Of a DNA stretch of 64,000 nucleotides, positions 190 through 16,523 are shown piece after piece; positions within the stretch are counted from its first letter, which is position 1; every line of letters starts with the position of its first letter. The notes beneath the pieces are model-generated. The model did not search any database. It saw only the letters and a program-made list of their open reading frames with translations, and was not told where the DNA came from. Source of the stretch: an uncultured bacterium (GTDB lineage: Bacteria; Bacillota_I; Bacilli_A; RFN20; CAG-826); contig CASFTG010000001.1 of assembly GCA_949297805.1 (NCBI GenBank), positions 744,001 to 808,000 of the forward strand, written 5' to 3'. Made by a program: the position numbers and the translations under genes.

Positions 190-197
190 TTCGCTTA

Positions 198-224
198 GGG
201 GAGGAATATTCCTCCCCTTTCTTA
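198..224 (+). terminator. Intrinsic terminator of thrS
   Basis: A perfect ten-base-pair inverted repeat (GGGGAGGAAT / ATTCCTCCCC) at 198-217 is followed by a short T-rich run. It lies nine bases after the thrS stop and also separates thrS from the convergent minus-strand operon whose last stop codon is at 222-224. Confidence 0.85.
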
Positions 225-911
225 TACCAAATGGTTCTTATTATAATCGGAGGCTAAATACGATAACCGGTTTAGAAGGAAGAGCAGCAAGACGAAGCCG
301 ACGTAGATACAGCCTTGGGTCAGATAGATAGCCCAAGTCGGATAGGAATCGAAGACATAGCTAAGCAATGACCCATCGAGGATCATGACCAAGGCTTTGC
401 CATTGGGATTGAAGTAAGGAATGGAGATATACCCTTTTATCTGCAGCCAATTGGCAAATAGGGCCGTCGCGGCGACGATGATAGGGAACACCATATACCG
501 CTTCTTGCATTCAAACCCATAGAACAAGAGATAGAGGGATAAGAAGAACAATAACCCATGGGTGAAGATACCGCGGATAACGATGGGTAAACTCATGTTA
601 TGAAGGAAGATGTTGGGGTTGAGGATGACTCCAATCATATAACCTAAGGCCGAGATCAGACCCAAGGCCCCCGAGCCGAAATAGAAGGGCTTAATGAAGA
701 AAGTTAAAGATACCCCGATGATGAGGTAACTAAGGTGGCTTAATTCAGTCGGGACCAAAGGGGTATAGATATATTCGATTGTCTTCCAAATAAGCAAGAT
801 GCAAGCGATGACCCGGCAAGTGATCGAGAAGGCCGGTTTCTTCCGGCGAAACATCAAGAAGATCAGCAGGAAGGCGAGGAAAGTCAAAGGCACCGCATAC
901 CGCATCCACAT
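222..911 (-). CDS. YwaF/TIGR02206-like polytopic membrane protein
   Basis: This 229-residue protein is almost wholly hydrophobic, with six to seven predicted transmembrane segments separated by short charged loops. Its layout (an N-terminal segment ending in FRRKK, a long polar stretch containing YFNPNG, and a last segment ending in a basic tail) resembles the YwaF/TIGR02206 family of uncharacterised membrane proteins. The family match is from memory. It is the last gene of the surface operon and starts two bases after the stop of the beta-helix gene, with only a weak GAGG-like ribosome site inside that gene, so translational coupling is likely. Function is unknown; it may be an accessory to the exporter encoded upstream. 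Confidence 0.7.
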   Translation of the reverse strand: MWMRYAVPLTFLAFLLIFLMFRRKKPAFSITCRVIACILLIWKTIEYIYTPLVPTELSHLSYLIIGVSLTFFIKPFYFGSGALGLISALGYMIGVILNPNIFLHNMSLPIVIRGIFTHGLLFFLSLYLLFYGFECKKRYMVFPIIVAATALFANWLQIKGYISIPYFNPNGKALVMILDGSLLSYVFDSYPTWAIYLTQGCIYVGFVLLLFLLNRLSYLASDYNKNHLV

Positions 912-913
912 AC

Positions 914-3406
914 TTAGGACCTCGCCGCGAGTTCGCTTAGCGATGGGGTCTCACCGAAATAGGGATGCTCGCCCATATCCAAGGTATAGAAGGTATAGTC
1001 CTCAAACCCCATGACGTTAGAGGCGGCCCGAGAAAGGGCGACTTTCATGGTCGAGTACTTAGCCTCATCCGAACCCATAAACTGGTTGTCTGGAACCATC
1101 GTAGCGGAGCGGCTCAAGACATGTTCATAACAATTGACCGAGAAGCTGCCTAGACTATCGTCTTCAAAGACGACATCACTCAAATTGGTTCCGCCACCCA
1201 TCTTCATGATTGGGGTATTGACATAACTGTCGCCATTATAGGAATAAAGGGCTTGGCTCGTTTGGCCGATTAGTTGCCGTAAGGGCAAATAATCATCTTC
1301 GGTGACATCAGCCTTGATTGAGCTGACGCCACCATGGACTTTGATAAAGGTATCGATGTCGTGGGTCAAAAGGGAATCGAAGCTCAAATCGGACAATTTC
1401 TGGTAAGTATAGAAACGATTGTCACCGCTTAAAGTCAACTCGGTCGGCGCCATGGTCAAGGCCCCATCCTTCGGGAAATAATCGATATAATTGCCAAGAA
1501 CCGCATAAAACATCGTGCTGATGTTGTTGTAAAGGAAAGGCCCATTGTAATAGGAATCGAGCCCAATCGAGGAAACGTGGCAATTGTAGAAAAAACAATC
1601 CTTGACCTCGACGTGAGCAGCATATTCTTTACTTCCATCCTCGTTGACAAACCCGGTCGTATTGGTCATGGCCTCTTGCACCGTCTGGGCGCCGGATGAC
1701 ATTTCCTCAAGCGTGAAATGGTCCCGATCGATCATGAAATGGATGAAAGGCGAAATAAACACATTAGCTTGATTGGCGGTTAGGACACCGGCCGAAAGAA
1801 TGGAATCGGCCTTCCCAGAATACATATTGGCCGCCGTGGGGTTGGCTAAATCAAGCGGGGTCACGTAATTGAAAACGGTCGTAGTTTGTTTGTTGCCGTT
1901 ATCGTCGCTATAGGTGATTTGTTTGTTTGGATCGACTCGGTTGAACTCATTCGCTCCAGCTTTAATGCCGTATTCAAGCGCATTTTGGAGCAAGCAATTA
2001 TCGATTACGATGTCAGAGGAATAAGTCCTGATCAGTGACCTCGCCGAAGAAATGACGGAATTGGAGATAACCGTCCGGTCGCCATTAACGTCGATCCCGA
2101 CCCCGGTGGTAATAAGATTTTGATAATTGTTTCCAAAGTCGGCATTCCGAAGCCGGATGTTGTCGATCGTTACCCCATCGCCGTCAACGTAGAGAAGGGA
2201 ATTATCTTGGCCATAAAGAACCAATAATGGTTCCACTCCGTCGGTATTATTCTCATATGGGGAGGCCGGATCGCCGACCGCGGTGTAGATCCGAGGGCCG
2301 CGATATAAATCCGACGGGCTTAAGACCGGAACTACCGTCCCGTCGGAAAGGACGCTGGAACTGCTGGGGTAACAAAGGTCATGGCCATTAATAAGGAAAC
2401 CATTGCCGTAAAGGGATTGGCGGAGGCGGATGCCCGAATGGACTTCCTTTGAGACCTTAAAGGAGATGCCGGCATTCCACCCATCAATGAAATCGTGATT
2501 ATAGGTCGTTTCGAAATCATAAACATAGGTTTCCGGATCGACCGCCCCCTCGACGTTGCCAAAGATATCGTAATGGTCCTTGTCTGAGAGCGAAGCGTAA
2601 TTGGCCTGACTTTCCAAATTGATATGGAGCACCACCGCTTCTCCGTTTTCCGACAAATTGGTGGCCTTAAGCAAATCGGCATAAGAATAGACGTTAACCG
2701 CCTCGACCGCAGTAAAAACGATCTCGATAGGCGGAGTAGTCGTCGAGAAGGGGTGAGTAAAACGGACATAGGAGTCACCTGGAGACAAAACCTTGATTTG
2801 CTCTTTGCTCAAATCGATGGCCAGATTATCGCTGTGCTCTAAATCGAAATCGTAAATATCCATCGATTCGTTCCCATAAACGGCGGCTTCGAAATCGATG
2901 ACGGCCTGTTTCTTCGAATAGGGGGCGTCAATTGAAGCATATTCGATATCTTTCGTTCCCCAATAGTACGATTTCATGCCCGCGGTAGAAAAGGGATAAT
3001 CAAGATTGATTATGAGAGCACCGGCTTCGCCGTAGACGATGGCGGTGAATCGCCGGGTAACGTTGCCTTTAAGGTTGCTGACGGTCACCTCGACTTGACC
3101 TTCGCTTAAAGGAACCAAATAGTAACCGTCTTCTTCCTTATCGATCCGGGCCACGTTCTGGTCCTCGGGTACGGAAAAGACGATTTCGTTTCCTTCCGAT
3201 AACGGATAATCCTGATTGTAGATAGCGTTAGCTTGTAGTTTCTGCTTCCCGTCCTTCAACCCGAAAGGGGCCAAAGCCGGATAATCGATTTCGATATCGG
3301 CGATATCCTGTTCCACCCCTTTGATAAGGTAATCAGAGGTTGTAAAAGCCAAAAAGGCGATTAGAAAAGGGAAAATAAGCAGCAAACCCAAAAGGCCCTT
3401 CTTCAT
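914..3406 (-). CDS. Secreted or anchored right-handed beta-helix protein
   Basis: The 830-residue protein starts with a hydrophobic signal or anchor (MKKGLLGLLLIFPFLIAFLA) without a lipobox. Residues of about 50-230 look like beta-rich Ig-like modules. Residues of about 390-620 carry the spaced pattern of a right-handed parallel beta-helix (VTIDNIRLRNADF, GDRTVISNSVISS, SDIVIDNCLLQNALEYGI, VEVKDCFFYNCHVSSIGLD), as found in pectate-lyase-like and surface adhesin folds. I see no catalytic signature of a polysaccharide lyase. The start codon overlaps the stop of the upstream ABC permease by four bases, so it is co-translated with the exporter. A role as a surface structural or carbohydrate-contacting protein is inferred. 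It has no C-terminal sorting signal. Confidence 0.75.
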   Translation of the reverse strand: MKKGLLGLLLIFPFLIAFLAFTTSDYLIKGVEQDIADIEIDYPALAPFGLKDGKQKLQANAIYNQDYPLSEGNEIVFSVPEDQNVARIDKEEDGYYLVPLSEGQVEVTVSNLKGNVTRRFTAIVYGEAGALIINLDYPFSTAGMKSYYWGTKDIEYASIDAPYSKKQAVIDFEAAVYGNESMDIYDFDLEHSDNLAIDLSKEQIKVLSPGDSYVRFTHPFSTTTPPIEIVFTAVEAVNVYSYADLLKATNLSENGEAVVLHINLESQANYASLSDKDHYDIFGNVEGAVDPETYVYDFETTYNHDFIDGWNAGISFKVSKEVHSGIRLRQSLYGNGFLINGHDLCYPSSSSVLSDGTVVPVLSPSDLYRGPRIYTAVGDPASPYENNTDGVEPLLVLYGQDNSLLYVDGDGVTIDNIRLRNADFGNNYQNLITTGVGIDVNGDRTVISNSVISSARSLIRTYSSDIVIDNCLLQNALEYGIKAGANEFNRVDPNKQITYSDDNGNKQTTTVFNYVTPLDLANPTAANMYSGKADSILSAGVLTANQANVFISPFIHFMIDRDHFTLEEMSSGAQTVQEAMTNTTGFVNEDGSKEYAAHVEVKDCFFYNCHVSSIGLDSYYNGPFLYNNISTMFYAVLGNYIDYFPKDGALTMAPTELTLSGDNRFYTYQKLSDLSFDSLLTHDIDTFIKVHGGVSSIKADVTEDDYLPLRQLIGQTSQALYSYNGDSYVNTPIMKMGGGTNLSDVVFEDDSLGSFSVNCYEHVLSRSATMVPDNQFMGSDEAKYSTMKVALSRAASNVMGFEDYTFYTLDMGEHPYFGETPSLSELAARS

Positions 3407-5013
3407 GCTTGTGCCCTCACCTCGTAACGAATGAATAAGCGATCGGCCCGAATTTCAAAAGCCACGGCGGACACGATGAATAGCGCCGTCGACAGACCGA
3501 GCAACACCCAATTCGGACCCATTAGGCCTAGATTGCCGAAACTGTCGATTAAGGTCAATAAGGCCGGGCCGCCGGCCAGAACGAAAGGAGCGACAAAGGA
3601 AACGATTGGCAGCACTGGGGAATTAGGCCGATTGGCCAATGATTCGACGGCGGCGAAGAAGTATAAAGAAGCCAAGAACAATAAACCGGACAAGGTAATT
3701 AAGGCAAAAGACGGCCAATCCAGACTCCCCAAGCAAGCCAGGGCGAAAGTCGAAACGATAAAAGCCAAGCCGGCCCAAATATAAGGCACGGCGATTTTGA
3801 CCCGCAGCTGGGTTTTGGGGCGAATGGGGAATTGCTTCATCAGCTCAACGCACCGCCCTTCCTTATCCAGCGAGAATCCGCCAGATCCATTGACAACGGA
3901 CAGAAAGAGGAAGAGCAAGGCGATGGAGATGAAGAACTCAAAGCCCGAGAAAAGGATTCGAACGTAATTAAGGTTGCCGGTTCGGAAAATGGCGTTAACC
4001 CCTTGATAAACGGAGATGATGAGAAAAGGCGAAACCAAAACCAAGGAGAAGAAGGAGAGCACCCCTTCATTAGAAGAGGAAAGAACGAAAAATTCTTTTT
4101 TGATCAAAGCCCTGACTGGGGAGGTCATACCGTGGCCATGGGCCCATTTTTCCTTTTTCCGTGATCGAGGGCCGTTTTTAAGGAAGGACGAATAGATGGC
4201 CGACAATACTGGATAGGAAATGACGTAAACCACAAAGCAAATCAACAGAGAAAACAGGAAATTAAGCACATCCGCGCCAAGATAAGACATCTTCAAATAG
4301 GAAGTAAAGGGATAAAGCGAATCGCCGATTCTTAGCAATACCGCCACGAAATCCTTGGTCAAAAGATAATTGAGTGAGTTGCCGACGACCAAATCGACGA
4401 ATAAGCGCAAAATGGCGGAATATAGGAAAGCCAGGCCGGTCATCAAGGCAAAGGAAACCAGCAGCAAAACCCAGATATTCCTTTTGATAAAAGAGGAAAG
4501 CAGCGCAAAAAGTGGGCAAAGCAAGGAAGCGAGCCCAACCGATAGCAAAGGGAAGAACAAAGCAAAAAGAATCGCCACAATATAGAAGGCAAATAAGCCA
4601 TTGGATTTAACGCAATAGGCGATGGATATCGGGAAGGTCGTAAGCAAATGGAAAGCCGTCGCTTGAAAATAGAATAGCAACGCCTTGGCTCCATATAACG
4701 ATCCTGGCTGCAAGGGCAAGGCGCCAACAATCAGCCTTTCCTTCAAAGAAAAGAAACTCCTCGCCATCTTCGGCAGAAGATAGACTACCGAGGCTAAGAG
4801 CAAAACGAAGAGCAAGATGGCGGTCAAAGCCCGGTTGACACCTTGATAGGTTTGGAAAGTATCATAGACTTTGACGTAAATAAAGCATTCAATGGCGGCG
4901 ACCGCCGCCATCCCGATGACATAAAGCAGAACCTGAGGCAGTTTTTTAAGAAACGGCCCGGGCTTAAACAAAGGCAAGGTAAGCAACTCGCGGACGAATA
5001 AGGTCCCGATCAT
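3403..5013 (-). CDS. ABC-2-type exporter permease
   Basis: This 536-residue protein has about twelve hydrophobic segments arranged in two halves, joined by a basic cytosolic loop near residues 285-300 (GPRSRKKEKWAHGHG). The size and doubled topology fit an ABC-2 exporter in which one polypeptide supplies both membrane halves. The phrase SLKERLIVGALPLQPGSLYGAK near residue 90 resembles the coupling-helix region of such permeases. Its start overlaps the ATPase stop by four bases and its stop overlaps the beta-helix gene by four bases. The pair sits inside an operon of secreted proteins, which suggests it exports a component of the same surface structure. The substrate is unknown. Confidence 0.85.
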   Translation of the reverse strand: MIGTLFVRELLTLPLFKPGPFLKKLPQVLLYVIGMAAVAAIECFIYVKVYDTFQTYQGVNRALTAILLFVLLLASVVYLLPKMARSFFSLKERLIVGALPLQPGSLYGAKALLFYFQATAFHLLTTFPISIAYCVKSNGLFAFYIVAILFALFFPLLSVGLASLLCPLFALLSSFIKRNIWVLLLVSFALMTGLAFLYSAILRLFVDLVVGNSLNYLLTKDFVAVLLRIGDSLYPFTSYLKMSYLGADVLNFLFSLLICFVVYVISYPVLSAIYSSFLKNGPRSRKKEKWAHGHGMTSPVRALIKKEFFVLSSSNEGVLSFFSLVLVSPFLIISVYQGVNAIFRTGNLNYVRILFSGFEFFISIALLFLFLSVVNGSGGFSLDKEGRCVELMKQFPIRPKTQLRVKIAVPYIWAGLAFIVSTFALACLGSLDWPSFALITLSGLLFLASLYFFAAVESLANRPNSPVLPIVSFVAPFVLAGGPALLTLIDSFGNLGLMGPNWVLLGLSTALFIVSAVAFEIRADRLFIRYEVRAQA

Positions 5014-5753
5014 GGCTCGTTCCTCCGCTGGGATAAAGACAAGAAATAAGGCGAGACCTCGTAACGCAAACTGGGATCAGCCTTCAAATCAAAAATCCGA
5101 TTGATGACGCCATCGTAAATAATGGCAATTCGATCGGCCAAAGCCGAAACGAGCTCGATATTATGGCTTGCGATGAAAACGGTCCGCCCATGATCGACGA
5201 ACTCCTTCATCATCAAGGTCAACTCATGGCTTGTCACCGCGTCCAAGCCGACCGTTGGCTCATCCATAACCCAAATCTTCGGATTGTGGATAAGCGAGGC
5301 AATAAGCCCAGCTTTCTGCTGCATGCCGTGGGAATATTCCTTGATCGGCCGAGCCAAATCTTCCATCTTCAAGTCCAAACGGGTGGAGAGATAAGTTAAG
5401 TTCTTATCGAAGGTAACGTCATTCACGCCGAAAACCGAAGCGATGAATTCCAAATACCGAAGTCCGCTCATCTCAGAATAAGACAAAGGTTCCGAAGGGA
5501 CGTAACCCAAAACCTTTTTGACCTCGATTGGCTCGGTTTTAATGGAATGACCATCAATAAGAATCTCGCCTTGATTGAAAGTTTTCAACCCAATCATTGA
5601 ATCGATGGTCGTGGACTTGCCGGCGCCGTTCGCCCCGATGAAGGCGAAGAATTCGCCCTCGAAAACCTCAAGGGTGATACCTTTGAGAACTTCTTTGCTT
5701 CCGTAGGATTTACGGAGTCCTTGGATAGATATGGCCACTGGACGTTCGATCAT
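5010..5753 (-). CDS. ABC transporter ATP-binding protein
   Basis: This 247-residue nucleotide-binding subunit carries every expected motif: Walker A GANGAGKST near residue 40, a Q-loop region, the signature-like YSHGMQQKAGL near 143, Walker B IWVMDEPTVGLD near 160 and the switch histidine in IASHN near 195. It belongs to the CcmA/drug-export class that partners ABC-2 permeases. Start and stop codons overlap those of the neighbours by four bases, so production is coupled to the permease downstream and the large secreted protein upstream. It energises transport at the cytoplasmic face of the membrane. Confidence 0.95.
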   Translation of the reverse strand: MIERPVAISIQGLRKSYGSKEVLKGITLEVFEGEFFAFIGANGAGKSTTIDSMIGLKTFNQGEILIDGHSIKTEPIEVKKVLGYVPSEPLSYSEMSGLRYLEFIASVFGVNDVTFDKNLTYLSTRLDLKMEDLARPIKEYSHGMQQKAGLIASLIHNPKIWVMDEPTVGLDAVTSHELTLMMKEFVDHGRTVFIASHNIELVSALADRIAIIYDGVINRIFDLKADPSLRYEVSPYFLSLSQRRNEP

Positions 5754-8626
5754 AAGGCACTCGCTTTACTGGATATGGCCCAGGTTTTATCGGAATTAAG
5801 TTTCATAACTCGGTATACTTCCCGCGCCGAATCGGCGGAGTCAGCATTCGGTTTCTTGCCTTCCTGCCCGACCAATTTCATGATCGAACAAGTATTGCCG
5901 CTTGGATTGAAGGGCATGAAACCACCTTGATAGGAAATATAGTCCTTCCCATTGTAGTTAATATAGATTCCTCCGGCGGAAGTTTGGTTAACGGTGACTT
6001 TTTGGAATGAACCGCTTAAGGAATTGGCGTTGCGGTCACCGGTTAAATTGGTATTGTTCGACCAATAGACGTTATTGGAAGGATTGTCGTTATCGAATAA
6101 GAAGGCATAGGCTTGGTTGCTGCCGATGTAAATAAGCCTAGAGGTGACATCATAGTAAATATTTTGCGGTAAAGAAGAACCGTTACGGCCCGGATAAATC
6201 CCGCTTCCCTCAAGCGGAGTTAATATTTCCCCATTAGAGATAAGCGGGCTATTGTAGAAAGCGGAGATGCCCAGAGTGCGCCGGGCGGCGATTGTTTTGA
6301 CGTCAAGCCCTTCAATAATATCTCCGAGCCCCCCGACATAAGATAAGATGTTCGTCATGTTGCATCCACTGGTCGCCCCACTGGAATAAAGATTGATATT
6401 CACCCCATTCAAAGAAGACAGAAAGGTATCGTTGTCGCGCAGGTTAACGAAGCCCGCCAAAACATAAGGGATGGAATTACCAGAATTGAACGAAAAGGTA
6501 CCGAAATAATCCATTTTGGCCGGTACCTTCGAATAATAATTCCAAAAATCATTCCATTGCCAAACAAGCTGTCCGTAACCATCATAACCAGCACCATAGG
6601 CTTTTCGGGTGTCGTACCATCCAGTCGAGCTGTTAGCTCCGTTCGTAAAGGGATAGTACGTCGTAGCTAGGTTAATTCCTCCGGCATGGTAATTCTTGTG
6701 ATTATCGGCATAATCAAGAGTGCAGTTGCCAATATCGTATGAACCATGTGCGAAAATTAGTTGTGTATTCACGTCACCATATAAATAGCAGCCGGCCATA
6801 AAGATATATTCCTGCTGTAAGGTGATTTTTGAATTATAAGCATAAAAATCAAAGTATGGCGGGATGACTTTTTGATATTTGTATGAGTTGAAAGAGAACG
6901 AAATATTCAAAGCGGAAAGAAACTTCATCGACATGTCGATATTGAAGGAATTGACTACCACGTCCGCATCTTGGAATATGTAGCGGAACCTTTGATACGT
7001 GATGTTATACATCGATACGTTATCCCGCCAATTGGATGGATAGTCGGTTTTTATTTTGTCGTAAAGCTCGGTGTTGTAATAAGTCACCCGTTGAATCTTG
7101 CCGGAATTAAGCTGCAACACGAAAGATGAATCAGGCCCAACGATTCCTATGTCATCAGTGAAATGGCCAGAATTCCCGAGAGATACAAACAATTTACCGT
7201 AAAACTTCGCCCCTCGCTCTACTATCAAAGAACAATCCAAGTATGGGCAGCGGAACATATTCATGTAGTCAGTCCCGTTGAAGTAAGCTTCAGGGATTGC
7301 ATCTTCGCGATACATATTCTCAAAGACTAAAGGTGTATAGAACGTAGAACCGTCTTTTAAAACCAAATTACCAGTGCGATCAGGTGAAGAATCAGTGATA
7401 GATCCGAAGCAATCGAGCATACCTGTTTTGGCTACAGTAGTCTTATAAGTCTGATTCGGAGTCCAATCGCTAGTGTTCTCATACTTTTCGCTATTTCCTT
7501 CGATTATCAAATCGTAACCATTCAGATCGATTTCGGTATAGGCGCCAACCATCAAGCCTTGATAGTTCAACTGAGTCCAATCCAAAGGGACTTTATTCCG
7601 ATCGGTAACTACAAACCCGGTTAGCCCGCCCATCGTAAGTTGGCCAGTATAAACTATGTCGCAGTTAAGCACGAACCTGGTGGCACAATACTCCGACTGA
7701 TTGGTCGCGCGGACGCCTCCGTTATCATCGGAAATGGTACTGATCTCAGACAAATTAATCGGTTTATAGTAATGATTATAGTTTCCCACTCCGTTCGGAT
7801 AATCTGCATTATGCGTTTCCAAACCAATTGAAGCTTTATTTCTGGTATATCCTCTTAACGTACCGCCGGTCCAAACGGTGTCTCCGTTAGAATTCGTCGT
7901 TTGATACTGGCCTTCATAATTGATATTCCAAGTTCCGTTCCGACGCGGATATGCGTAATCTCCAGGACTATCATACGATTTTACAAGACTAGGCATATCG
8001 TCAGGATTACTGGCACCATTATCGCCTTTCACAGTGAGTTGAGTGGTAGAGTATGCATTTTTTGCGTCCTTAATCGTGCCGGTTTTTTTCTTCTCCCATT
8101 TCGACATATACCAGTACTGATTGTTTGCTAGCGAAAAATAGTTATCCAAACCTGCATTTGTATTCTTGTTATCGGCAGTGACTTTATCCAAATTTGTATT
8201 AGGATTCGGATTGACCACTTCCGATGCCCCGGTAGCATACTCTTCATAGTACGTATCTTTTAACCATTTGGCGCTCGTGGAAACAGGGGAGATAGTCAAA
8301 TCGGAACTAACAGTTATATGGTTGTTCAGCATCTGCCCGTTGTTAGCTTTCCAAGCATAAACGGTCAAAGTGCTCCCTGATACGCTGGAGGTAAAAGGCG
8401 CGTCTTTCAAACTAAGCGTATAGCCATCTTCAAAATATTTGACGCAATTGGTGGAACCGTCGGTGTTTGTAAAAGTTATCGCCCGGACATTGTTTCCACC
8501 AGGCGCAACGTTGCTATCAGCCGTATTGACAATCGGGTCTTCTAAAACCAATTTTCCGAAAGCCGGGGCGGCCATGCAAATAACCGAGGTCAGAAATACC
8601 GCAAGCCCCACCGTTAAGCGTCTCAT
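5750..8626 (-). CDS. Large secreted protein of the surface operon
   Basis: The 958-residue product starts with a typical secretion signal (MRRLTVGLAVFLTSVICMAA followed by PAFG). The mature part is rich in Asn, Tyr, Gly and Ser, with alternating beta-strand patterns and no domain I recognise. Between residues of about 330 and 700 there are repeated strand-turn units (LTVYAWKA, LIVERGAKFYGKLFVS, FVLQLNSGKIQRVTYY), suggesting an elongated beta-solenoid. I see no sorting motif, lipobox or catalytic site. It overlaps its neighbours by four bases on each side and is followed directly by the ABC exporter genes. It is probably the main structural or adhesive subunit encoded by the operon, but this is inference from size, composition and context. 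Confidence 0.7.
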   Translation of the reverse strand: MRRLTVGLAVFLTSVICMAAPAFGKLVLEDPIVNTADSNVAPGGNNVRAITFTNTDGSTNCVKYFEDGYTLSLKDAPFTSSVSGSTLTVYAWKANNGQMLNNHITVSSDLTISPVSTSAKWLKDTYYEEYATGASEVVNPNPNTNLDKVTADNKNTNAGLDNYFSLANNQYWYMSKWEKKKTGTIKDAKNAYSTTQLTVKGDNGASNPDDMPSLVKSYDSPGDYAYPRRNGTWNINYEGQYQTTNSNGDTVWTGGTLRGYTRNKASIGLETHNADYPNGVGNYNHYYKPINLSEISTISDDNGGVRATNQSEYCATRFVLNCDIVYTGQLTMGGLTGFVVTDRNKVPLDWTQLNYQGLMVGAYTEIDLNGYDLIIEGNSEKYENTSDWTPNQTYKTTVAKTGMLDCFGSITDSSPDRTGNLVLKDGSTFYTPLVFENMYREDAIPEAYFNGTDYMNMFRCPYLDCSLIVERGAKFYGKLFVSLGNSGHFTDDIGIVGPDSSFVLQLNSGKIQRVTYYNTELYDKIKTDYPSNWRDNVSMYNITYQRFRYIFQDADVVVNSFNIDMSMKFLSALNISFSFNSYKYQKVIPPYFDFYAYNSKITLQQEYIFMAGCYLYGDVNTQLIFAHGSYDIGNCTLDYADNHKNYHAGGINLATTYYPFTNGANSSTGWYDTRKAYGAGYDGYGQLVWQWNDFWNYYSKVPAKMDYFGTFSFNSGNSIPYVLAGFVNLRDNDTFLSSLNGVNINLYSSGATSGCNMTNILSYVGGLGDIIEGLDVKTIAARRTLGISAFYNSPLISNGEILTPLEGSGIYPGRNGSSLPQNIYYDVTSRLIYIGSNQAYAFLFDNDNPSNNVYWSNNTNLTGDRNANSLSGSFQKVTVNQTSAGGIYINYNGKDYISYQGGFMPFNPSGNTCSIMKLVGQEGKKPNADSADSAREVYRVMKLNSDKTWAISSKASAL

Positions 8627-9240
8627 TCTTCAATCCTCAAAGTGAAAGACAGGCTTCCCAGCGAAGGAATTTGGTAACCAGTCGGGAAATCAAAACGGAA
8701 AACGCAGCGGAAAGAAATCGGATTAAAAATATCGTTTATCCCGCTGTATTTGACTAAGGAATTCAGCGAATTGCGATCATAATCAGCCTGAGTCAGCATG
8801 TCATAGACGTAGAATTCGCCTACGACCTGATCGCTAGACGAAGACCGGCGATAAGGGTTGAAAGCCACTCCGTTATACTCTAGGTAGCAATAAGCATAAG
8901 AGGCGACGCTGCTGAGCGAGCCAGACAAGATAAAGCTAGCGTGGTTCCCCATATCTTCAATCGCATCCATCCCATTGGCCTTAATCGTCATATTGACGGC
9001 TACTTGGCAATCGCCGGCCGCTCGGGAGGGGAGGTTCGATTCAAACGAATCGATAGAAAGAATGTCACTTCCGATCGCTCGATAACCAGTTTCGGTCTCG
9101 CAAACGACCTCGGAAGCGCCCAAAGCCGCTTTAACCGGCTCGTTGTTGCCAAGGAAAAGACCGGCATAGGTCGCGGTGACGCTCGAAAGGGGCAGCATTA
9201 AAGCGAAAAACATGACTGGCAGCCGATTGCCCCACCTCAT
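8623..9240 (-). CDS. Small secreted protein with SipW-type signal peptide
   Basis: The start was set at 9240 because it gives an ATGA overlap with the preceding gene, like the other junctions of this operon; a longer in-frame start at 9366 would lie deep inside that gene. The 205-residue protein begins MRWGNRLPVMFFALMLPLSS and continues VTATYAGLF. The end of this signal resembles the TYA-x-x-F pattern of proteins cut by SipW-type signal peptidases, such as TasA-like proteins. The mature region is beta-rich, has five scattered cysteines and ends LSFTLRIEE. A signal peptidase of that type is encoded four genes upstream. It could be a minor fibre subunit or anchor; the function is not known from sequence. 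Confidence 0.75.
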   Translation of the reverse strand: MRWGNRLPVMFFALMLPLSSVTATYAGLFLGNNEPVKAALGASEVVCETETGYRAIGSDILSIDSFESNLPSRAAGDCQVAVNMTIKANGMDAIEDMGNHASFILSGSLSSVASYAYCYLEYNGVAFNPYRRSSSSDQVVGEFYVYDMLTQADYDRNSLNSLVKYSGINDIFNPISFRCVFRFDFPTGYQIPSLGSLSFTLRIEE

Positions 9241-10340
9241 GCCCCAACCTCCTGAAAGCAAGCGTAAACAGTAAGAGTCCGGGTAATGGGAGTAAGGTCG
9301 GTCAATTTGCCACTGGTTGGATCGCTTGGTCCTAGCTGCGATGTATACCAGCCGACGAAGTCGCACCCATCTTTAATGGCATACGGAAGCTTGGCGATGG
9401 CTGAGCCATAGGCAACGGTCATCTCCACACTGGCCATCGGCTGACCGGAAATCCGCCCCCCATTGGTCGCGGCATCGAAAGTGACCGTGACGTCAGGCTG
9501 GGTCAAACGGATGGTGACGGTCCAAAAACCGTTATCGTAAATGTAGATGGTCCCAGTGCTGGTATCGAAGTAAAAGTCGCCATCCTTGGCATCGGGGACG
9601 AAAGTCGGGGCGCCCGCTTCGTAAAACCACACCGTTCCGGGATCGGGCATCGGGAAAGAGAGAATTTCCGGTTCCCCTTCGGTGTAGGAAATCTGCAAGT
9701 AATACATCCCGGCTTCCTCATCGGTTTGAGCGACGATGCTGGTAATTCCCCGCCCGTCTTCCCCGTTCCGATAAGGCAAGGTGATGACCGAGGGTTCAAC
9801 GGTCGGATCGGTATAGGTGATGGTGATAACGATGTCGCCATTCTCCTCTTTGGTTTGGGAGACGTTGGCCACCCCATTCCCATCCCTTCCTTTTGGGAGT
9901 TCGAATTCATGAGTTTCTCCGTCATTCGTGGTAATGGTCACGGTGGTCATCCCCGATTCCTCGTCATAGGACGATTCGATGTCGGTTATCGAGGTGGCAT
10001 TAGGGATAGTCCAAATCGAGGGGGCGAGGGAGGTGTCGCTATAGGTCATGGTGATGACGAGGTCTTTGCCATCCTCGGATACTTTGGAGGAGACGGAGGC
10101 GATGCCGGTGCCCCTCGGGCCCTGTTCGCCGTCTTGTCCGGCTGGGATAGTGAAAGTGACCGGCTTGATGTCATCGTCAGTGAAGGTGATGGTGATGATG
10201 GTCGAGCCATCGGCTTGGGGGGCGGCTAATATCGAATCGATGTAAAGCGATTCCTCGCTGCCCATTATGCCACACGAGGAACCCAGGGCCCCGGTCAAAG
10301 CTAGGCCCAGGCCGAGGAATAAGGATTTAAGCTTGTTCAT
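9237..10340 (-). CDS. Repeat lipoprotein with collagen-like linkers and Flg_new/InlB-B-like end
   Basis: The start at 10340 follows a strong AGGAGGA ribosome site; an upstream in-frame start would remove it. The signal MNKLKSLFLGLGLALTGALG runs into SSC, giving a lipid anchor. The mature region holds about four copies of a 45-60-residue unit: a beta hairpin ending in an Ile/Leu-Pro strand (TFTIPAGQDGEQGPRG, TITTNDGETHEFELPKGRDG, VITLPYRNGEDGRG). Each is followed by a short collagen-like G-x-D-G turn and I-x-S-V or V-A-N-V. Near the C-terminus FYFDTSTGTIYIYDNGFW resembles phage tail-fibre modules, and the last 70 residues (GGRISGQP, FVGWYTS, TLTVYACF) match the Flg_new/InlB B-repeat pattern. 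It overlaps the upstream gene by 14 bases. It is probably an adhesive or structural lipoprotein. Confidence 0.8.
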   Translation of the reverse strand: MNKLKSLFLGLGLALTGALGSSCGIMGSEESLYIDSILAAPQADGSTIITITFTDDDIKPVTFTIPAGQDGEQGPRGTGIASVSSKVSEDGKDLVITMTYSDTSLAPSIWTIPNATSITDIESSYDEESGMTTVTITTNDGETHEFELPKGRDGNGVANVSQTKEENGDIVITITYTDPTVEPSVITLPYRNGEDGRGITSIVAQTDEEAGMYYLQISYTEGEPEILSFPMPDPGTVWFYEAGAPTFVPDAKDGDFYFDTSTGTIYIYDNGFWTVTIRLTQPDVTVTFDAATNGGRISGQPMASVEMTVAYGSAIAKLPYAIKDGCDFVGWYTSQLGPSDPTSGKLTDLTPITRTLTVYACFQEVGA

Positions 10341-11460
10341 GTCGTTCCTCCTCTTTCCCCATAAAGGGCAGATCAAGCAATTGGATGGCCTTTTTCTCGC
10401 CTCGAGTATAGCAATGGAAGGTAGAGTCGCAATAATGGCAGACGTCGCCCGTGCGCTTATTGCCGCATATGGGGCAATAATCCCCTTGGTCGGGGACCGA
10501 TAAGAGCAAGGTTTTCAACGGTAAAGCAGTATCGATGCTCCCAAATAAGCTGATCAGGGCTTTCTTCCCCTCGCCATATAGTTCATAAGACGGGTAGAAG
10601 AAAGACGGCCGAGGCTTGACCTCATAGGATAAGGCGAAGCCATCGTAGATATTAGACGCCTTCATTATGAGCGAATCGCCCAATCTTCTTAAGGAGACCA
10701 AGCAATCGGCGAAGCGGAAGGAAAGAGGCAACTTACCCTCATTCCCTTTGACGATGTCCCGTCCATCAGAAAAATCATTAACGATCTTTTGGATGCTCTT
10801 CTCTGAATCAAAAGAAGCATTCGACAACATATAGGACCGATATAACGCCCCATATAAAGGATCATAAGCCAAGGCATTGGTCTGGTGGACGTTCTCTTCT
10901 TTCAAGGGGATTAAGGTCTGGAAGAAATAAGTCCGCCCTAAGGTCTCGGCCTCTTGCTTCATATAGAGCAATTCATCGAGGAGATGGAGTTTCTTTTCCT
11001 GTTCTCCCCCATTGGCCCCTTCGATGTAATCGAGCAAAGGCAAGGCATTGCCATATTTGGAATAGGAAAGTCCGTTATTGATGATCGGGAGCAAAGAGGA
11101 TTGATAACGGAAATTCGAATAGGCCGCTCCCAGCTCATCAATCAGCCGGACCAAAATCATCTTGGCGAACCGGTTCTCGTAAGTGGAATTATCGTCTTCG
11201 ACTTCTGAGCAAAGGACTTCCTTCGGGGTCAACCGACCATTTAGATAAGCAAAGTGCTTGGCTTTCTTGGCTGTTTCAGCAAAGAGTTTCGGGGAGAAAG
11301 AAGAGGCTTGGCCGAGCTTCTTATACACCGCCTCTTCCTTTAGCCCTTTTCGGGCAAAACGATAGATGTTCTCAAGGCAATCCAAAATATTCCGGCTCGT
11401 CTTCTCCGAGCTGGCCAAGATCGGGGCGAACCCGTTATCTAGTGATAACTGGCCTCTCAT
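10327..11460 (-). CDS. DUF2357-like protein with C-terminal zinc ribbon, partner of McrB-like AAA+
   Basis: This 377-residue cytosolic protein has no signal or membrane segment. Residues of about 88-115 (EVEDDNSTYENRFAKMILVRL) and 200-235 (HQTNALAYDPLYGALYRSYM) resemble the conserved core of DUF2357 proteins, which are commonly encoded beside McrB-like AAA+ ATPases. The C-terminus has a four-cysteine zinc ribbon, CPICGNKRTGDVCHYC, near residue 335. I cannot see the PD-(D/E)xK nuclease signature expected of a cutting McrC-type partner. The gene overlaps the AAA+ gene by four bases, as expected for a stoichiometric complex. The family call is from memory and moderately secure; an adaptor role in a surface-protein operon is inferred. 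Confidence 0.6.
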   Translation of the reverse strand: MRGQLSLDNGFAPILASSEKTSRNILDCLENIYRFARKGLKEEAVYKKLGQASSFSPKLFAETAKKAKHFAYLNGRLTPKEVLCSEVEDDNSTYENRFAKMILVRLIDELGAAYSNFRYQSSLLPIINNGLSYSKYGNALPLLDYIEGANGGEQEKKLHLLDELLYMKQEAETLGRTYFFQTLIPLKEENVHQTNALAYDPLYGALYRSYMLSNASFDSEKSIQKIVNDFSDGRDIVKGNEGKLPLSFRFADCLVSLRRLGDSLIMKASNIYDGFALSYEVKPRPSFFYPSYELYGEGKKALISLFGSIDTALPLKTLLLSVPDQGDYCPICGNKRTGDVCHYCDSTFHCYTRGEKKAIQLLDLPFMGKEEERHEQA

Positions 11461-13247
11461 CCGAGCCTCCTCATTTCCCTATCTATCGTCTCTAAGCTCT
11501 TCTTAAAGGCATCGCCATAGGTTTTCTTCAAATAGTCGCCCATCGAGCGGAGCCCGGCCCGATAACCGGCATCGACCCGGCCTTTGGCTTTCCGGAGGAC
11601 CTTAAAGGCGAAGAGGTAATCAATCGCCCCTTCTTTTGAGCCCGTGATGGCGGCATAAACGGGAGCTAAGTCACTGGCTTGGTTAAGGAACCGGTTGCCG
11701 GTTTTGATGCCAAGGCAATCATCGCCTTCCTTCAATAAAGCCACTAGTTTCTTCTGGTCATTGGCATCGAAAGATAGCTTCTTATCTTTCCGCGCCGCCT
11801 CGGCAAGACTCGCCAAATCCTTATTAGAGACCGCGACCGGCTTGGCCTTGGTCGAGAAGGACAAAGGCTCGTGGAATTCGTCGAAATCAAGAACGATAGC
11901 CCGGTCGATAACCTTATCGGTGATGGCGAAGGTCGAATCGTCGGTATTGCAAGTCCCGATGAAGCGGGTATTGGGGGTGATGAGCAAATCGCCGCCAGCT
12001 AAATGAACCGGGGCGTCCTCCCCGACGTTAACGATATGGATCCGCCTTTGATCCTCAGGGAACTCCATAACTGAGAGGAAGTCGGCGAAGTAATATTCAA
12101 CCCGGGAGATGTTCATTTCGTCTAAGACCATCAGGTTAAGATGGTTAAGCCGATAAGTGGCTTCATAAAGCCGTTTTAAGAACTCGGTCTCGAAATAGAC
12201 CCCGGTGAAGTCGTTGTAATAGCCCAAGATGTCATCCCGATCCTTATAGGTCATCTGGACCGATTCGAAGTAGGCGTTCTCGCCAATGAACTTGGCGAAA
12301 TACCGAGGCAACGAAGATTTACCAGTGCCGGAGACGCCCTCAAGGATCGTTAACGGAGTGGTCAAAATGGCCGAGACGAAGACCGCCAGATCATCTAAGG
12401 AATAATATAAGGAGCAGGTGGTAGCCAAATAGTTTTGTAGATCCTCGACGAAGCGGCGAAGCGTCAAGCCGGTCGGAAGGAAAGGCAAGGCCTGCTCCCC
12501 CAGCAAGAAACGGTCATCGATGGCGACGAGCCCCGGGAACACCCGAGTCTTGTCGTAGGCTAAAGGGGCGCCGCCTGTCCCCGAGCCGATGGCGACCCCG
12601 GCTCCCGCGGCTACCCCACCGGCGGCTCCGCTGCTCCCGCCTTTTTTCTCGGTGTCAAAGGTATTAGAGAGGTCGGCTTCGCTCTTTTCCTCTTCCTCCG
12701 GCTCATCCTTAGCTTCCGAACCGATGCTGACCGCGTTTCTCGCCGTAAATGGCAAGGCCATAACTAGAAGGTAGATAGCCAAGACGATGGCGTAGATAGC
12801 AGCAAAAGCCACGATGGAAATAAGCAGGGTCTCGCCGACGAAAGTGATGTTCCGCTTTAACCCTTCGGCCCCTTCGGGAATGGTGAAGAGGAGCCCTAAG
12901 CCGACGAAGACGATGAACCCGACGACTCCAATGAGGATGACATAAGGGAGCATCCCGGAGTTAACGAGTTTCTTTCCGTCTTCATGGATCTTATTCAAGG
13001 CGATGAAGAGGGAGATGACCCCGGCGATGAGATAAAGGGCGATGAATAGAAGCAGGACATAGGCCGAGCTTTGGGGCGCGATGGCGGCGAAGTTAAGCAA
13101 TTCGCCGATCCCGGCAATTGGGTTGTTCTTCTTGAAGATAATGTAATTGGCGTCTAACCCGCCGGCGATGAAGAAGCTCAGCAAAGCGAACAAAATGACC
13201 GAAGCCGTGAGGGCTTTCTGGCGGGGGCTGAATTTGAATATTTTCAC
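11457..13247 (-). CDS. Membrane-anchored McrB-like AAA+ ATPase
   Basis: The 596-residue protein has three parts. Residues 1-175 contain four transmembrane helices. Residues of about 176-230 form an acidic then glycine/alanine-rich linker (GSSGAAGGVAAGAGVAIGSG). The remaining residues form a McrB/dynein-class AAA+ domain with Walker A GVSGTGKSS, an MTYKDRDDILGYYN segment, Walker B LMVLDEMNISRVEYYFADFL, sensor 1 FIGTCNTDDST and an arginine-bearing KVIDRAIVLDF. The NTPase should form a ring at the cytosolic face of the membrane, which is unusual for McrB relatives; most act on nucleic acid in the cytosol. It overlaps the signal peptidase gene and the DUF2357-like gene by four bases each. The substrate is unknown. 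Confidence 0.85.
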   Translation of the reverse strand: MKIFKFSPRQKALTASVILFALLSFFIAGGLDANYIIFKKNNPIAGIGELLNFAAIAPQSSAYVLLLFIALYLIAGVISLFIALNKIHEDGKKLVNSGMLPYVILIGVVGFIVFVGLGLLFTIPEGAEGLKRNITFVGETLLISIVAFAAIYAIVLAIYLLVMALPFTARNAVSIGSEAKDEPEEEEKSEADLSNTFDTEKKGGSSGAAGGVAAGAGVAIGSGTGGAPLAYDKTRVFPGLVAIDDRFLLGEQALPFLPTGLTLRRFVEDLQNYLATTCSLYYSLDDLAVFVSAILTTPLTILEGVSGTGKSSLPRYFAKFIGENAYFESVQMTYKDRDDILGYYNDFTGVYFETEFLKRLYEATYRLNHLNLMVLDEMNISRVEYYFADFLSVMEFPEDQRRIHIVNVGEDAPVHLAGGDLLITPNTRFIGTCNTDDSTFAITDKVIDRAIVLDFDEFHEPLSFSTKAKPVAVSNKDLASLAEAARKDKKLSFDANDQKKLVALLKEGDDCLGIKTGNRFLNQASDLAPVYAAITGSKEGAIDYLFAFKVLRKAKGRVDAGYRAGLRSMGDYLKKTYGDAFKKSLETIDREMRRLG

Positions 13248-14146
13248 TTGGCTGAACTCCTTGTGTAAGTGATAGCGACTTGGTCGGATTTCTTCTTTTT
13301 GTCGGTGGTTCCTCGATAAGCGGAATCGAATTCAATCGTTCCTTCGGGGCAGGAATAGGTGAGCAGACTCACCCCATCCTTGAACTTCGCGTCATAGAAC
13401 TTAAGCCGATTCTCTCGAAGTTTGTCGTTGAACCCGGAATAGATCTCATAGGCGATGATGCAATAGGCGATAGCCGACATCCCGAGGATCCCATAATCGT
13501 CTTGAAGATAGAAGGTGATGGAACCAAAGAAGGGGATGCGGGTCCCGGTGTAGACCCCGTTGACCATATCGAGGGTGATGCGGATGTTGTCATCCTTATC
13601 GACGGCATCGCCTCGGGTCATGTAGTAGTCATCGCCGATGAACACCACCCGATGGATGACGTTGATCCCTTGGGGATGGCGGTAGGAGATGACGTCATAG
13701 AGTTGCACGTCATCAAACGAGTTGACTTCTTTGAGAATAACGATGTCGTTGATTTGGATCCGCTCATCGATGTCTTTAAGATACCATTCATTGGATGGAT
13801 CGACCTTGGACATCGAACCGGTCCGAACGGCCTCGAGGGAATAAGGGATCCCGAGCCCGGGCATCGCGCGCGTGAATATAAGCGTTCCGCATAGGAGCAA
13901 GACGACGAGGAATCCGATGTTGGCCAAAACCGAACCGGCCTTGCACCACTTCGCCATCTTTGGACTAAGGGAGCTCTTGGCGACCTTATCTTCCAATACG
14001 TCGAAATCGAGCTTCCCCTCGCCCATTTCCTTCTTGCTGGTGAAATATATCCAGAACAAGAAGACAGTTAGGGCGAGGAGAAGGACGATGATGCTCACCA
14101 TCAAGACGGTGAAGACGGTTGATAGATAGATCGGCAATAGAGGCAT
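13244..14146 (-). CDS. SipW-type (S26B) signal peptidase I
   Basis: The 300-residue membrane peptidase has two N-terminal transmembrane helices and another near residue 210. The catalytic serine lies in RTGSMSK near residue 110. Instead of the lysine of the usual bacterial enzyme, a histidine appears in NVIHRVVFI near 168, followed by the conserved YMTRGDAVDKDDN. The Ser-His dyad defines the archaeal/ER-like class that includes Bacillus SipW, which matures TasA-like fibre proteins. It lies 39 bases downstream of a gene with a SipW-type signal, its likely substrate. The ribosome site TAGGAG sits in the loop of a small hairpin just before the start codon, which may hold its output below that of its substrate. 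The C-terminal 60 residues are hydrophilic. Confidence 0.88.
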   Translation of the reverse strand: MPLLPIYLSTVFTVLMVSIIVLLLALTVFLFWIYFTSKKEMGEGKLDFDVLEDKVAKSSLSPKMAKWCKAGSVLANIGFLVVLLLCGTLIFTRAMPGLGIPYSLEAVRTGSMSKVDPSNEWYLKDIDERIQINDIVILKEVNSFDDVQLYDVISYRHPQGINVIHRVVFIGDDYYMTRGDAVDKDDNIRITLDMVNGVYTGTRIPFFGSITFYLQDDYGILGMSAIAYCIIAYEIYSGFNDKLRENRLKFYDAKFKDGVSLLTYSCPEGTIEFDSAYRGTTDKKKKSDQVAITYTRSSAK

Positions 14147-14164
14147 CCGCTTCTCCTAAAGCGG
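14147..14164 (-). promoter_or_regulatory. Hairpin enclosing the ribosome binding site of the signal peptidase gene
   Basis: On the minus strand a six-base stem CCGCTT / AAGCGG encloses the loop TAGGAG, which is the only Shine-Dalgarno sequence for the start codon at 14146. Folding would limit ribosome access unless it is unwound, for example by ribosomes finishing the upstream gene. Seen in sequence; effect inferred. Confidence 0.5.
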
Positions 14165-14185
14165 AGGATAACAGAAATATAGGAA

Positions 14186-14842
14186 TTAAGCGCTAGCGCC
14201 GCTGTTCATGGTAACAGTGACGGTCGCGGTGAGCTTGGCTCCGTTAACGGCGGTTTGGAAAGTCTGCATGGCCCCCCAAGCGCCGTCAGAGTCAGAGGGA
14301 TAAGTCGAATTCACCCAATTGAGGAACCCGCCTTGATAGCCCGGGGTAACCCAAGTGATCTCAATGTCAGCTTTAGTCATGGATTTGACGGTCGCGGCAT
14401 CGCTGCCAGAGGTTTGCCAAGCAGAATCATCATTTTCGATTTTGATGTCAGCCGGCTTATTGAGATAGGCGGCGACATTTTCATTCGACCAGGCAAAAGT
14501 AACGGTGATGTAGGACCAAGCATCCGGTTCGCCGGTGACGGAAAGATCCAAGGAGAACTTCCGGTCGTTGGCTTCGTCGCCATCGACAAGGCCAGTGTCG
14601 TTATCGGTCGGATCTTCATAGCCATCGACGTTAAGCGTTCCGGTGCCTTCGGTGACGCCAATGCCGAGTTTAATGACTTGGTTGGAGATTACGACGGTGT
14701 CAATGGAGATTCCATCTTGAAGATCCTTGGTAGAATCGCCACCGGTGAGCGTTAGCGCAGCATACGTGCCGCCAACCGCCCCGGTCGCGCCAAAAGCTAA
14801 GACGCTAGAGACGATGAGTTTGATTTTTGAGGTTTTGGTCAT
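14186..14842 (-). CDS. TasA/camelysin-like secreted protein with SipW-dependent signal
   Basis: The start was set at the ATG at 14842, eight bases after a perfect AGGAGGT; a TTG six bases further up lies too close to it. The 218-residue protein begins MTKTSKIKLIVSSVLAFGAT and continues GAVGGTYAALTLTGG, a textbook SipW-dependent signal peptide ending in GGTYA. The mature part is Asp/Thr-rich and beta-rich (FSLDLSVTG, YITVTFAWSN, LTATVTVTMNSG), like TasA and camelysin, which assemble into extracellular fibres. It is the first gene of the operon, has the best ribosome site and is followed by its presumed peptidase. It is likely the abundant fibre subunit. Subfamily assignment is inferred from signal and context rather than full alignment. 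Confidence 0.82.
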   Translation of the reverse strand: MTKTSKIKLIVSSVLAFGATGAVGGTYAALTLTGGDSTKDLQDGISIDTVVISNQVIKLGIGVTEGTGTLNVDGYEDPTDNDTGLVDGDEANDRKFSLDLSVTGEPDAWSYITVTFAWSNENVAAYLNKPADIKIENDDSAWQTSGSDAATVKSMTKADIEITWVTPGYQGGFLNWVNSTYPSDSDGAWGAMQTFQTAVNGAKLTATVTVTMNSGASA

Positions 14843-15150: not shown

Positions 15151-15156
15151 ATGACT

Positions 15157-16116
15157 ATGGAAAAAGTGAATCCGCCCTATCGGGCCAGCTTCTCGACTAG
15201 CAACGCCGTGGTCATGGCCTTGACCTCTTTGTGCTTCAAAGTTGGCCGTTTATCGGCTATTTCTTCGCCGGTGCCGGCTTTAGAGGCTAGTGCGAACGAG
15301 GCCGCCGCCTATTTGGAAAAGAAGGGGAAACGGCTGACCCCTTCCCAGTTACGGGGACTCTATCGCGGGGAAGACATCGCTTCTGTCCCCTTGGCGAAGC
15401 GGATTTGCGGGCTTTTTTATCAATCAAGCAAGCTAGACCCAAGCGATTATTCGTTTTTAAAAACCTATGAATCGACCCTTTGGGGCGAGGATGTGCCGGT
15501 CCGGCTTTCCCGCCGGATCGAGTCCTATCCTTATTCGATCCCGCCCCACGCTAAGGTCGAGGAACTACTGAAGCGGACCTTCCTCTTCGTGAAGAACGCC
15601 CAACCCCATGTCTCCCCGATCCTTTTGTCAGGGTTATTGCTATTCATGCTTCCGGCCATCATGCCCTACCGCGAGCATCCCTACCTCTTGGCTTTCCTTT
15701 ATGCCAAAGCGGAATTGATTCGTTTTAAGAAGGACCTGCTCGGTATCAAGTTGCTTAAGCACCTCTTTAAGAACGAAGACAAGCTCAAGACGGCCTATGA
15801 GAAGGCGGTCAACAAAGAAGACATGGCCCCCTTCCTCATTGCTTACATGGAGACGATTGAAGAGGCGATTGAAGAAAGCATTAAGCATTCTTTATTAACT
15901 AGAGGTGGCTTAACCCCAATGGCTAAGCGGATGCTCGAAGCGATGGAGCCGGATAAGTACTACTCGGCGACCGAGCTATTGAGCCTATTGGGATTGAAGT
16001 CGAGGTTAGGCTTGCATAAAAACTATCTCAAGCCGGCTTTAGAGGCCAATAAGATCGAGATGAGCAACCCCCTCTCCCCAACCGATCGGAATCAGCGGTA
16101 CCGGAAAAAGCCATGA
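15157..16116 (+). CDS. Fic-fold protein lacking the Fic active-site motif
   Basis: The start is placed at 15157 because an ATG two codons earlier touches the -10 box. The 319-residue protein shows Fic-family order. A helical core spans about 130-195; DMAPFLIAYMETIEEAIEES near 222 matches the helix after the active site. At the C-terminus a winged helix includes YYSATELLSLLGLKSR and NYLKPALEANKIEMSNPLSP, like the Fic-associated ending. The catalytic HPFxxGNGR loop is absent: the corresponding stretch reads LLFMLPAIMPYREHPYLLAF, with the His, Gly-Asn-Gly and Arg lost. It therefore probably does not transfer AMP. It overlaps a small membrane protein gene by four bases and is divergent from the surface operon, so a regulatory role there is possible. 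Fic assignment is moderate. Confidence 0.6.
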   Translation: MEKVNPPYRASFSTSNAVVMALTSLCFKVGRLSAISSPVPALEASANEAAAYLEKKGKRLTPSQLRGLYRGEDIASVPLAKRICGLFYQSSKLDPSDYSFLKTYESTLWGEDVPVRLSRRIESYPYSIPPHAKVEELLKRTFLFVKNAQPHVSPILLSGLLLFMLPAIMPYREHPYLLAFLYAKAELIRFKKDLLGIKLLKHLFKNEDKLKTAYEKAVNKEDMAPFLIAYMETIEEAIEESIKHSLLTRGGLTPMAKRMLEAMEPDKYYSATELLSLLGLKSRLGLHKNYLKPALEANKIEMSNPLSPTDRNQRYRKKP

Positions 16117-16523
16117 TCTTCTTAGTCTTGTTAGTCTTGGGACTGGCCTTTGATGTGGCCGGCAGTTTCTTTAAGAAGAAGCCTTTGATCCTTTATCCCC
16201 TTTTGGGCGTAGCCTCGATATTCATCCTGGTCGGCTCAATCTATTTCGTCTTCTATTTCCAGTCGAAGTTCATTGAGGAAGAACCGGGCTGGGTCAACTG
16301 GACCTTCGCTTCCTTCGCTCTCTGCTTCCTCTTCTTGCAGCTGCTCTATATATCCTCTTATATAAAGAAAATCGGAAAGTACCTTGGGATGGCTTTTACC
16401 TTCCTCTTCTTCGTCTTTGCCTTAACCGGAGTCGGGATGCTTTGCTATTTCGGCCGGATCGCCTTAGAAAATGAGTCGATGTCATCGAATATTACGAATC
16501 TGCTCGCGATTTTGCTTGCATGA
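16113..16523 (+). CDS. Small four-helix membrane protein
   Basis: This 136-residue protein has four strongly hydrophobic segments (starting FLVLLVLGLAFDVAG, LILYPLLGVASIFILVGSIY, WTFASFALCFLFLQLLYISS and YLGMAFTFLFFVFALTGVGM) with short loops. I do not recognise the family. Its start overlaps the stop of the Fic-like gene by four bases, so the two are co-translated. The promoter of the infC operon lies across its last codons. A partnership between a cytosolic Fic-fold protein and a membrane protein is suggested by the overlap only. Confidence 0.75.
   Translation: MIFLVLLVLGLAFDVAGSFFKKKPLILYPLLGVASIFILVGSIYFVFYFQSKFIEEEPGWVNWTFASFALCFLFLQLLYISSYIKKIGKYLGMAFTFLFFVFALTGVGMLCYFGRIALENESMSSNITNLLAILLA

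Follow-up and report, generated by a model that had tools for sequence, protein, structure and literature searches.

What is a restriction-type AAA+ machine doing in an operon of secreted proteins? The question is raised by a minus-strand run of eleven open reading frames, all without internal stops, at positions 222-14842 of the window (the whole 64,000-nucleotide stretch of DNA that was analysed), which belongs to an uncultured bacterium whose genome, 94% complete, amounts to 1.65 Mb on 11 contigs. On the best reading, the operon encodes a nuclease-less, membrane-anchored McrBC machine that makes or remodels surface filaments. The genes, numbered along the operon, and a feature just past them are as follows:

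14186..14842, minus strand: gene 1, 218-aa secreted protein with signal peptide ...GGTYA/ALTL
13244..14146, minus strand: gene 2, SipW/archaeal-type signal peptidase of 300 aa (motif plus sub-threshold family score)
11457..13247, minus strand: gene 3, McrB-like AAA+ protein of the NxD clade, 596 aa, anchored by four transmembrane (TM) segments
10327..11460, minus strand: gene 4, McrC-like DUF2357 protein, 377 aa, with a Cys4 zinc ribbon
9237..10340, minus strand: gene 5, lipoprotein (lipobox-like GSSCG)
8623..9240, minus strand: gene 6, 205-aa secreted protein with a second SipW-type signal (...TATYAGLFLG)
5750..8626, minus strand: gene 7, secreted protein of 958 aa, a single hydrophobic segment at its N terminus
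5010..5753, minus strand: gene 8, ABC ATPase (DrrA/GldA-like)
3403..5013, minus strand: gene 9, multi-TM ABC permease without a named family
914..3406, minus strand: gene 10, anchored exported protein with Ig-type domains and a right-handed beta-helix
222..911, minus strand: gene 11, multi-TM membrane protein, putatively YwaF-like on first impression
197..218: 9-bp inverted repeat just past gene 11, a possible operon end (consensus match only)

Computed from starts with a Shine-Dalgarno-like sequence, the gaps at successive junctions are +39, -4, -4, -14, -4, -4, -4, -4, -4, and +2 bases. For genes 5 and 6, whose mechanically listed longer reading frames overlap neighbouring genes, better starts lie at 10340 and 9240, respectively. 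The preliminary description, which had reported eleven genes in a single minus-strand run with nine of ten junctions overlapping or two bases apart, agrees with these results. The inverted repeat at 197-218 scored as terminator-like on the plus strand only, and no Rfam or tRNA features were found in the window. Two genes (321 and 136 aa) at 15151-16523 diverge from the operon; this pair also adjoins it in same-genus copies, near IF-3/L20-like genes.

To place the operon among its relatives, contigs were scanned using eleven aligned AAA+ proteins as the query, and the best 80 of 301 candidate stretches, flanks included, were scored for gene content using profiles made from window-type genes. 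Among these 80, the core order of SipW-type peptidase, 4-TM McrB-like AAA+, DUF2357/zinc-ribbon protein, ABC ATPase, permease, beta-helix protein, and lipoprotein was kept in 57 of 58 sufficiently long loci, the last four genes lying on the same strand in 57 of the 58 loci that extend 9 kb or more downstream. The DUF2357 gene was found 3' of the AAA+ gene in all 76 of these loci with enough sequence, a count that takes in three that failed the strict distance test through overlaps and in which the gene is visible. Among the 73 whose upstream sequence was long enough, all but four (L122, L123, L128, and L131) carried the peptidase upstream of the AAA+ gene, including L104 and L116, in which it is present and failed the distance test only through overlaps. 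When the search was begun from the beta-helix gene instead, the AAA+ gene appeared in 15 of 19 neighbourhoods. Because the order is conserved in dozens of genomes, chance can be excluded as the origin of the gene set, and the check suggested at the outset, for co-occurrence of peptidase, AAA+, and DUF2357-like genes in related genomes, comes out positive in almost every locus. Window-type loci have the lipoprotein and genes 6 and 7 inserted between the DUF2357 and ABC genes, whereas in the commoner arrangement the ABC genes follow DUF2357 directly; the position of gene 11 differs between genera. Three loci (L122, L123, and L128) contain membrane AAA+/DUF2357 pairs for which the sequence covered shows neither a peptidase nor an ABC module close by, and these may be reduced forms.

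The related loci come from uncultured gut metagenome-assembled genomes titled Bacilli, Acholeplasmatales, Erysipelotrichaceae, and Clostridia, and also Oscillospiraceae, of which the Clostridia and Oscillospiraceae titles may be older names. Close copies occur in records titled Candidatus Alloenteromonas and uncultured Bacilli. In a phylum sample of 392 genomes, 26 carried the beta-helix gene, every one of them from the same family, order, or class, and the AAA+ profile matched 79 at E ≤ 1e-40, none outside the class, with full-length 4-TM forms accounting for about 24 of the 79. Presence is patchy, in that three of the five same-genus genomes among those listed contained the beta-helix gene.

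In the AAA+ protein, gene 3, four hydrophobic segments at the N terminus and a charged, low-complexity linker precede the AAA+ domain, in keeping with the four-helix-anchored McrB-like ATPase described at the outset; no coiled coil is evident in the protein. Its Walker A motif reads GVSGTGKS and its signature GTCNTDDST; the form GTxN[TKN]DDST, shared with its homologues, fits the NxD motif by which the CoCoNuT paper (eLife 2024, PMC11090510) sets apart one clade of McrB GTPases. Window-type AAA+ proteins group tightly in the tree (100/100). Deep placement from a tree with E. coli McrB was dropped, because long branches make it unreliable at depth.

For gene 4, the DUF2357 domain scored above the Pfam cut-off, and four cysteines are the only invariant residues past residue 203 across 66 DUF2357 relatives, as expected of the zinc-ribbon DUF2357-like protein that had been proposed. 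Its AlphaFold model (mean pLDDT 80.5) resembles McrC over residues ~12-216: four McrC structures rank 1-4 with Z scores of 8.3-8.9 and rmsd values of 3.6-4.4 over 132-141 residues, the next unrelated row having Z 6.0. Beyond the McrC N-terminal fold, the model places a beta domain and the Cys4 ribbon, and shows no long coiled-coil extension in its 377 aa. None of the 66 DUF2357 proteins matched PDDEXK_7, the McrC nuclease family, an absence that is weak on its own because several plasmid CoCoNuT-like McrC proteins escape this Pfam model too. The argument therefore rests on the fold model together with the absence of any conserved Asp, Glu, or Lys past residue 203 in the 66 relatives; according to the model, the nuclease is replaced by the beta domain and Cys4 ribbon, with no PD-(D/E)xK fold detected.

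Gene 2 matches the NCBIfam family TIGR02228/SipW at E ~1e-8, below both curated cut-offs, and has two N-terminal hydrophobic segments. Ser111, His165, and Asp180 are invariant in 11 homologues, and its profile found no other homologue in the host genome. The invariant Ser111 and His165, with the sub-cut-off family match, support the Ser-His signal peptidase first suggested and make a SipW type probable. Directly upstream of the peptidase, most loci encode 1-7 short secreted proteins with signals of an aromatic-A-x-W type that end in, for example, GFASW, GFATW, GGTYA, or SSALAAY. Gene 1 is a member of this single family, which is highly divergent (mean column identity 12%). Gene 1 and 90 relatives gave no match in Pfam, NCBIfam, or PDB sequences, TasA and camelysin included. 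Of the TasA-like fibre module originally proposed, the GGTYA-type signal peptide was found; TasA homology was not detected by family or sequence search, and the fibre is hypothetical. Secreted proteins in tandem beside a dedicated peptidase are what the subunits of an extracellular polymer would show, and we infer that the gene 1 family plays this part.

The ABC ATPase encoded by gene 8 scores best against drug and peptide exporter models. Gene 9, which has no Pfam or NCBIfam match, encodes a multi-TM protein and always lies 3' of the ATPase gene; the exporter claimed earlier is thus retained as an ABC ATPase with a multi-TM permease, whereas the ABC-2 label lacks Pfam or NCBIfam support. The model of gene 10 (AF2, mean pLDDT 88.7) comprises a TM segment (residues 3-27), an Ig/Big_2-type domain resembling S-layer and adhesin domains (32-127), a second Ig-like domain (~130-236), and a right-handed beta-helix (237-814), the fold giving Z 14.6 to pectate lyase 5gt5. 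A PDB sequence search with the beta-helix profile returned antibody-like noise over the Ig domains only. Among 54 beta-helix homologues, 7 matched the generic Pfam Beta_helix family. Membership of NosD was considered and found no support in Pfam; NosD's absence from the fold list is no evidence against it. Gene 5 contains repeated GxDG segments and a C-terminal List_Bact_rpt/Flg_new domain. Secreted beta proteins, which had been predicted, are supported, as is the lipoprotein.

Both halves of this cassette recur beside type IV pilus genes, whose names were assigned by eye from sequence. The host's own type IV pilus cluster includes a paralogous trio of ATPase, permease, and beta-helix genes (contig 2, ~284.5-298.2 kb; L171 570-13641), adjoining genes for prepilins, a prepilin peptidase, and PilC (the last two by eye), and another is present in a same-genus genome (L175). 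At L131 (3-8286), a pilD-pilM-pilC-pilB-like run leads straight into a close membrane AAA+ and DUF2357 zinc-ribbon pair. As each half is seen separately in pilus loci, each occurs independently beside filament machinery. In L176-L178, the ABC-permease-beta-helix trio is followed by very large secreted proteins (1882-2563 aa), without the AAA+ gene.

The loss of the nuclease, the membrane anchor, and a conserved operon with a peptidase, secreted proteins, and an ABC complex point to the building of surface structures, probably, and not to the cutting of DNA. We consider it reasonably probable that the operon serves the biogenesis of a surface structure and draws its power from a repurposed McrBC machine, and a role in surface biogenesis in general, for which the context support is good, is favoured to about the same degree. 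Precursors encoded by genes 1 and 6 would pass through Sec and be cut by the dedicated SipW-type peptidase, as their signal peptides and its adjacency suggest. The AAA+ protein may form a hexamer that its four TM helices hold at the membrane and that the DUF2357 protein activates through its McrC-like domain, the nuclease output having been lost. NTP energy would then be spent on envelope substrates, in extracting, threading, or resetting the peptidase or the assembly of subunits; the assignment of this particular step to the motor is doubtful. The ABC ATPase and permease, with the anchored beta-helix ectodomain and the lipoprotein, could supply energy to the growing extracellular structure or export for it. 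Filament formation, the hexamer, NTPase activity, and complex formation are all putative. Only tentatively can this be extended to a wider scheme, in which a McrBC-derived AAA+ was domesticated as the motor of an undescribed assembly path for filaments or surface proteins. Such a path could be coupled either to SipW-type secretion or to type IV pili, and its ABC/beta-helix partner would be of the mechanotransmission type. The earlier idea that the AAA+ pair and exporter jointly build or remodel an extracellular structure gains from the clustering of the genes, from neighbours that are not defence genes, and from the modules in pilus operons; the fibre itself is hypothetical. Counted against the surface reading are the patchy presence, the lack of TasA/camelysin homology in gene 1, a PADLOC match, and the three possibly reduced loci (L122, L123, and L128).

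Some of these points would fit the main rival reading, envelope-linked antiviral defence, in which the McrBC-like pair senses infection at the membrane and the peptidase and ABC genes are accessory effectors. Plasmid-borne CoCoNuT-like loci, which are defence systems, form its sister clades, the AAA+ protein matches the PADLOC candidate-defence model PDC-M26A (E 4e-38), and its presence is patchy, but the DUF2357 protein shows no nuclease fold and none is apparent alongside it. The 119 neighbouring proteins show no defence enrichment: 5 match PDC-S01, the other matches are singletons or near-singletons, and several of the matched models represent housekeeping-like enzymes. Same-genus copies have a conserved chromosomal setting, with one divergent neighbour in common and a ribosomal-protein-like context; phage records gave 2 matches, to the AAA+ domain only, and viral contigs no confirmed relative. 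Defence of this kind is judged unlikely. A restriction or defence island was dropped after the scan of neighbours, and the pair does not keep company with restriction or defence genes only, a pattern that the preliminary description had held would count against it.

The AAA+ protein might instead act as a chaperone in quality control or turnover, pulling failed SipW substrates, or complexes of the peptidase, out of the membrane and so disassembling structures, not building them. Its gene sits between those for the peptidase and the ABC proteins, it is membrane-anchored, and the host genome has one peptidase of the gene 2 kind, all of which would suit this role; the AAA+/DUF2357 pair 3' of a pilB-like gene in a pilus operon suggests assembly, although recycling is still compatible with it. 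Turnover and assembly cannot be separated by sequence, and we give turnover a small chance of being correct. Export of a polysaccharide, lipid, or peptide, with the remaining genes regulating it, would accord with the best scores of the ABC ATPase and with the frequency of beta-helix folds among carbohydrate enzymes. However, no biosynthesis enzymes were found in the operon by Pfam or NCBIfam, and the ABC-beta-helix paralogues go with pilins and giant surface proteins, making this quite improbable. If surface-structure biogenesis is correct, a restriction-type AAA+ machine has been put to work in making or reshaping the cell surface, and uncultured gut Bacilli have an assembly pathway of their own, each gene of which is open to test.

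The ABC ATPase, permease, and beta-helix exoprotein, plus a lipoprotein, are reminiscent of NosDFY, a likeness that suggests mechanotransmission; here, however, the beta-helix protein has Ig domains and a TM anchor, and none of its 54 homologues matched the Pfam NosD family. In the Bacillus SipW-TasA-TapA matrix operon, the SipW peptidase likewise adjoins a small secreted protein with a GGT(Y/W)A-like signal, and TasA-type fibre proteins are matured by SipW, whereas the secreted protein here has no detectable TasA/camelysin homology. To our knowledge, AAA+, DUF2357, and ABC genes are absent from the Bacillus operon. With McrBC and CoCoNuT systems, the operon shares the McrB AAA+ core and the fold of the McrC N-terminal domain, and some CnuC proteins of CoCoNuT have zinc ribbons, as gene 4 does; it differs in its membrane-anchored AAA+ protein and in having no specificity domain, no detected PD-(D/E)xK fold, and no recognised HEPN or other nuclease adjoining.

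The closest likeness is to CoCoPALM, a large clade in which McrB is fused to a TM/coiled-coil region, McrC has a coiled coil, and proteins of the signal peptidase family are associated, which the text of PMC11090510 bearing on it names, leaves unanalysed, and defers to a later publication. No such later paper was found in the literature covered, and searches on McrB with SipW, on PDC-M26, and on a gut Mollicutes SipW system gave nothing relevant. The initial statement that no described system has this gene set needs amending, as McrBC homologues with signal peptidases were so named in 2024; it may still hold for the ABC/beta-helix part and the 4-TM form, of which the CoCoPALM text of PMC11090510 makes no mention. 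That text describes a GTPase fused to an FtsB-like TM/coiled-coil domain and a McrC homologue that is usually coiled-coil-fused. The host itself carries a canonical-looking CoCoPALM locus (contig 1, 456-475 kb; L224) with a long McrC, a SipW-like peptidase, TYAWF-signal proteins, a nucleosidase-like protein, and two EAL proteins, the only ones found in the genome, which has two GGDEF proteins elsewhere. In related CoCoPALM-type loci, too, EAL domains of c-di-GMP signalling are encoded next to the peptidase and the secreted proteins, which counts in favour of the surface reading. The nucleosidase-like (PNP_UDP_1) protein is conserved in such loci, and the one at L043 11466-12218 is weakly similar to the Spiroplasma fibril protein Fib model. 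If the surface reading is correct, the CoCoPALM group gains a functional direction, namely signal-peptide processing, type IV pili, and c-di-GMP. As far as the CoCoPALM text goes, the operon shares with that group an NxD-type McrB GTPase with a membrane segment, a DUF2357 McrC homologue, and an adjacent signal-peptidase-family protein, two of these features, the NxD motif and the conserved neighbour gene 2, being found directly here. In contrast to the same description, its AAA+ protein carries four TM segments without an evident coiled coil, its DUF2357 protein is short with a zinc ribbon in place of a coiled-coil tail, and a near-obligate ABC-permease-beta-helix-lipoprotein module is attached. 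Given these shared and differing features, the operon is most aptly described as a variant, 4-TM and ABC-linked, of the named, uncharacterised CoCoPALM group.
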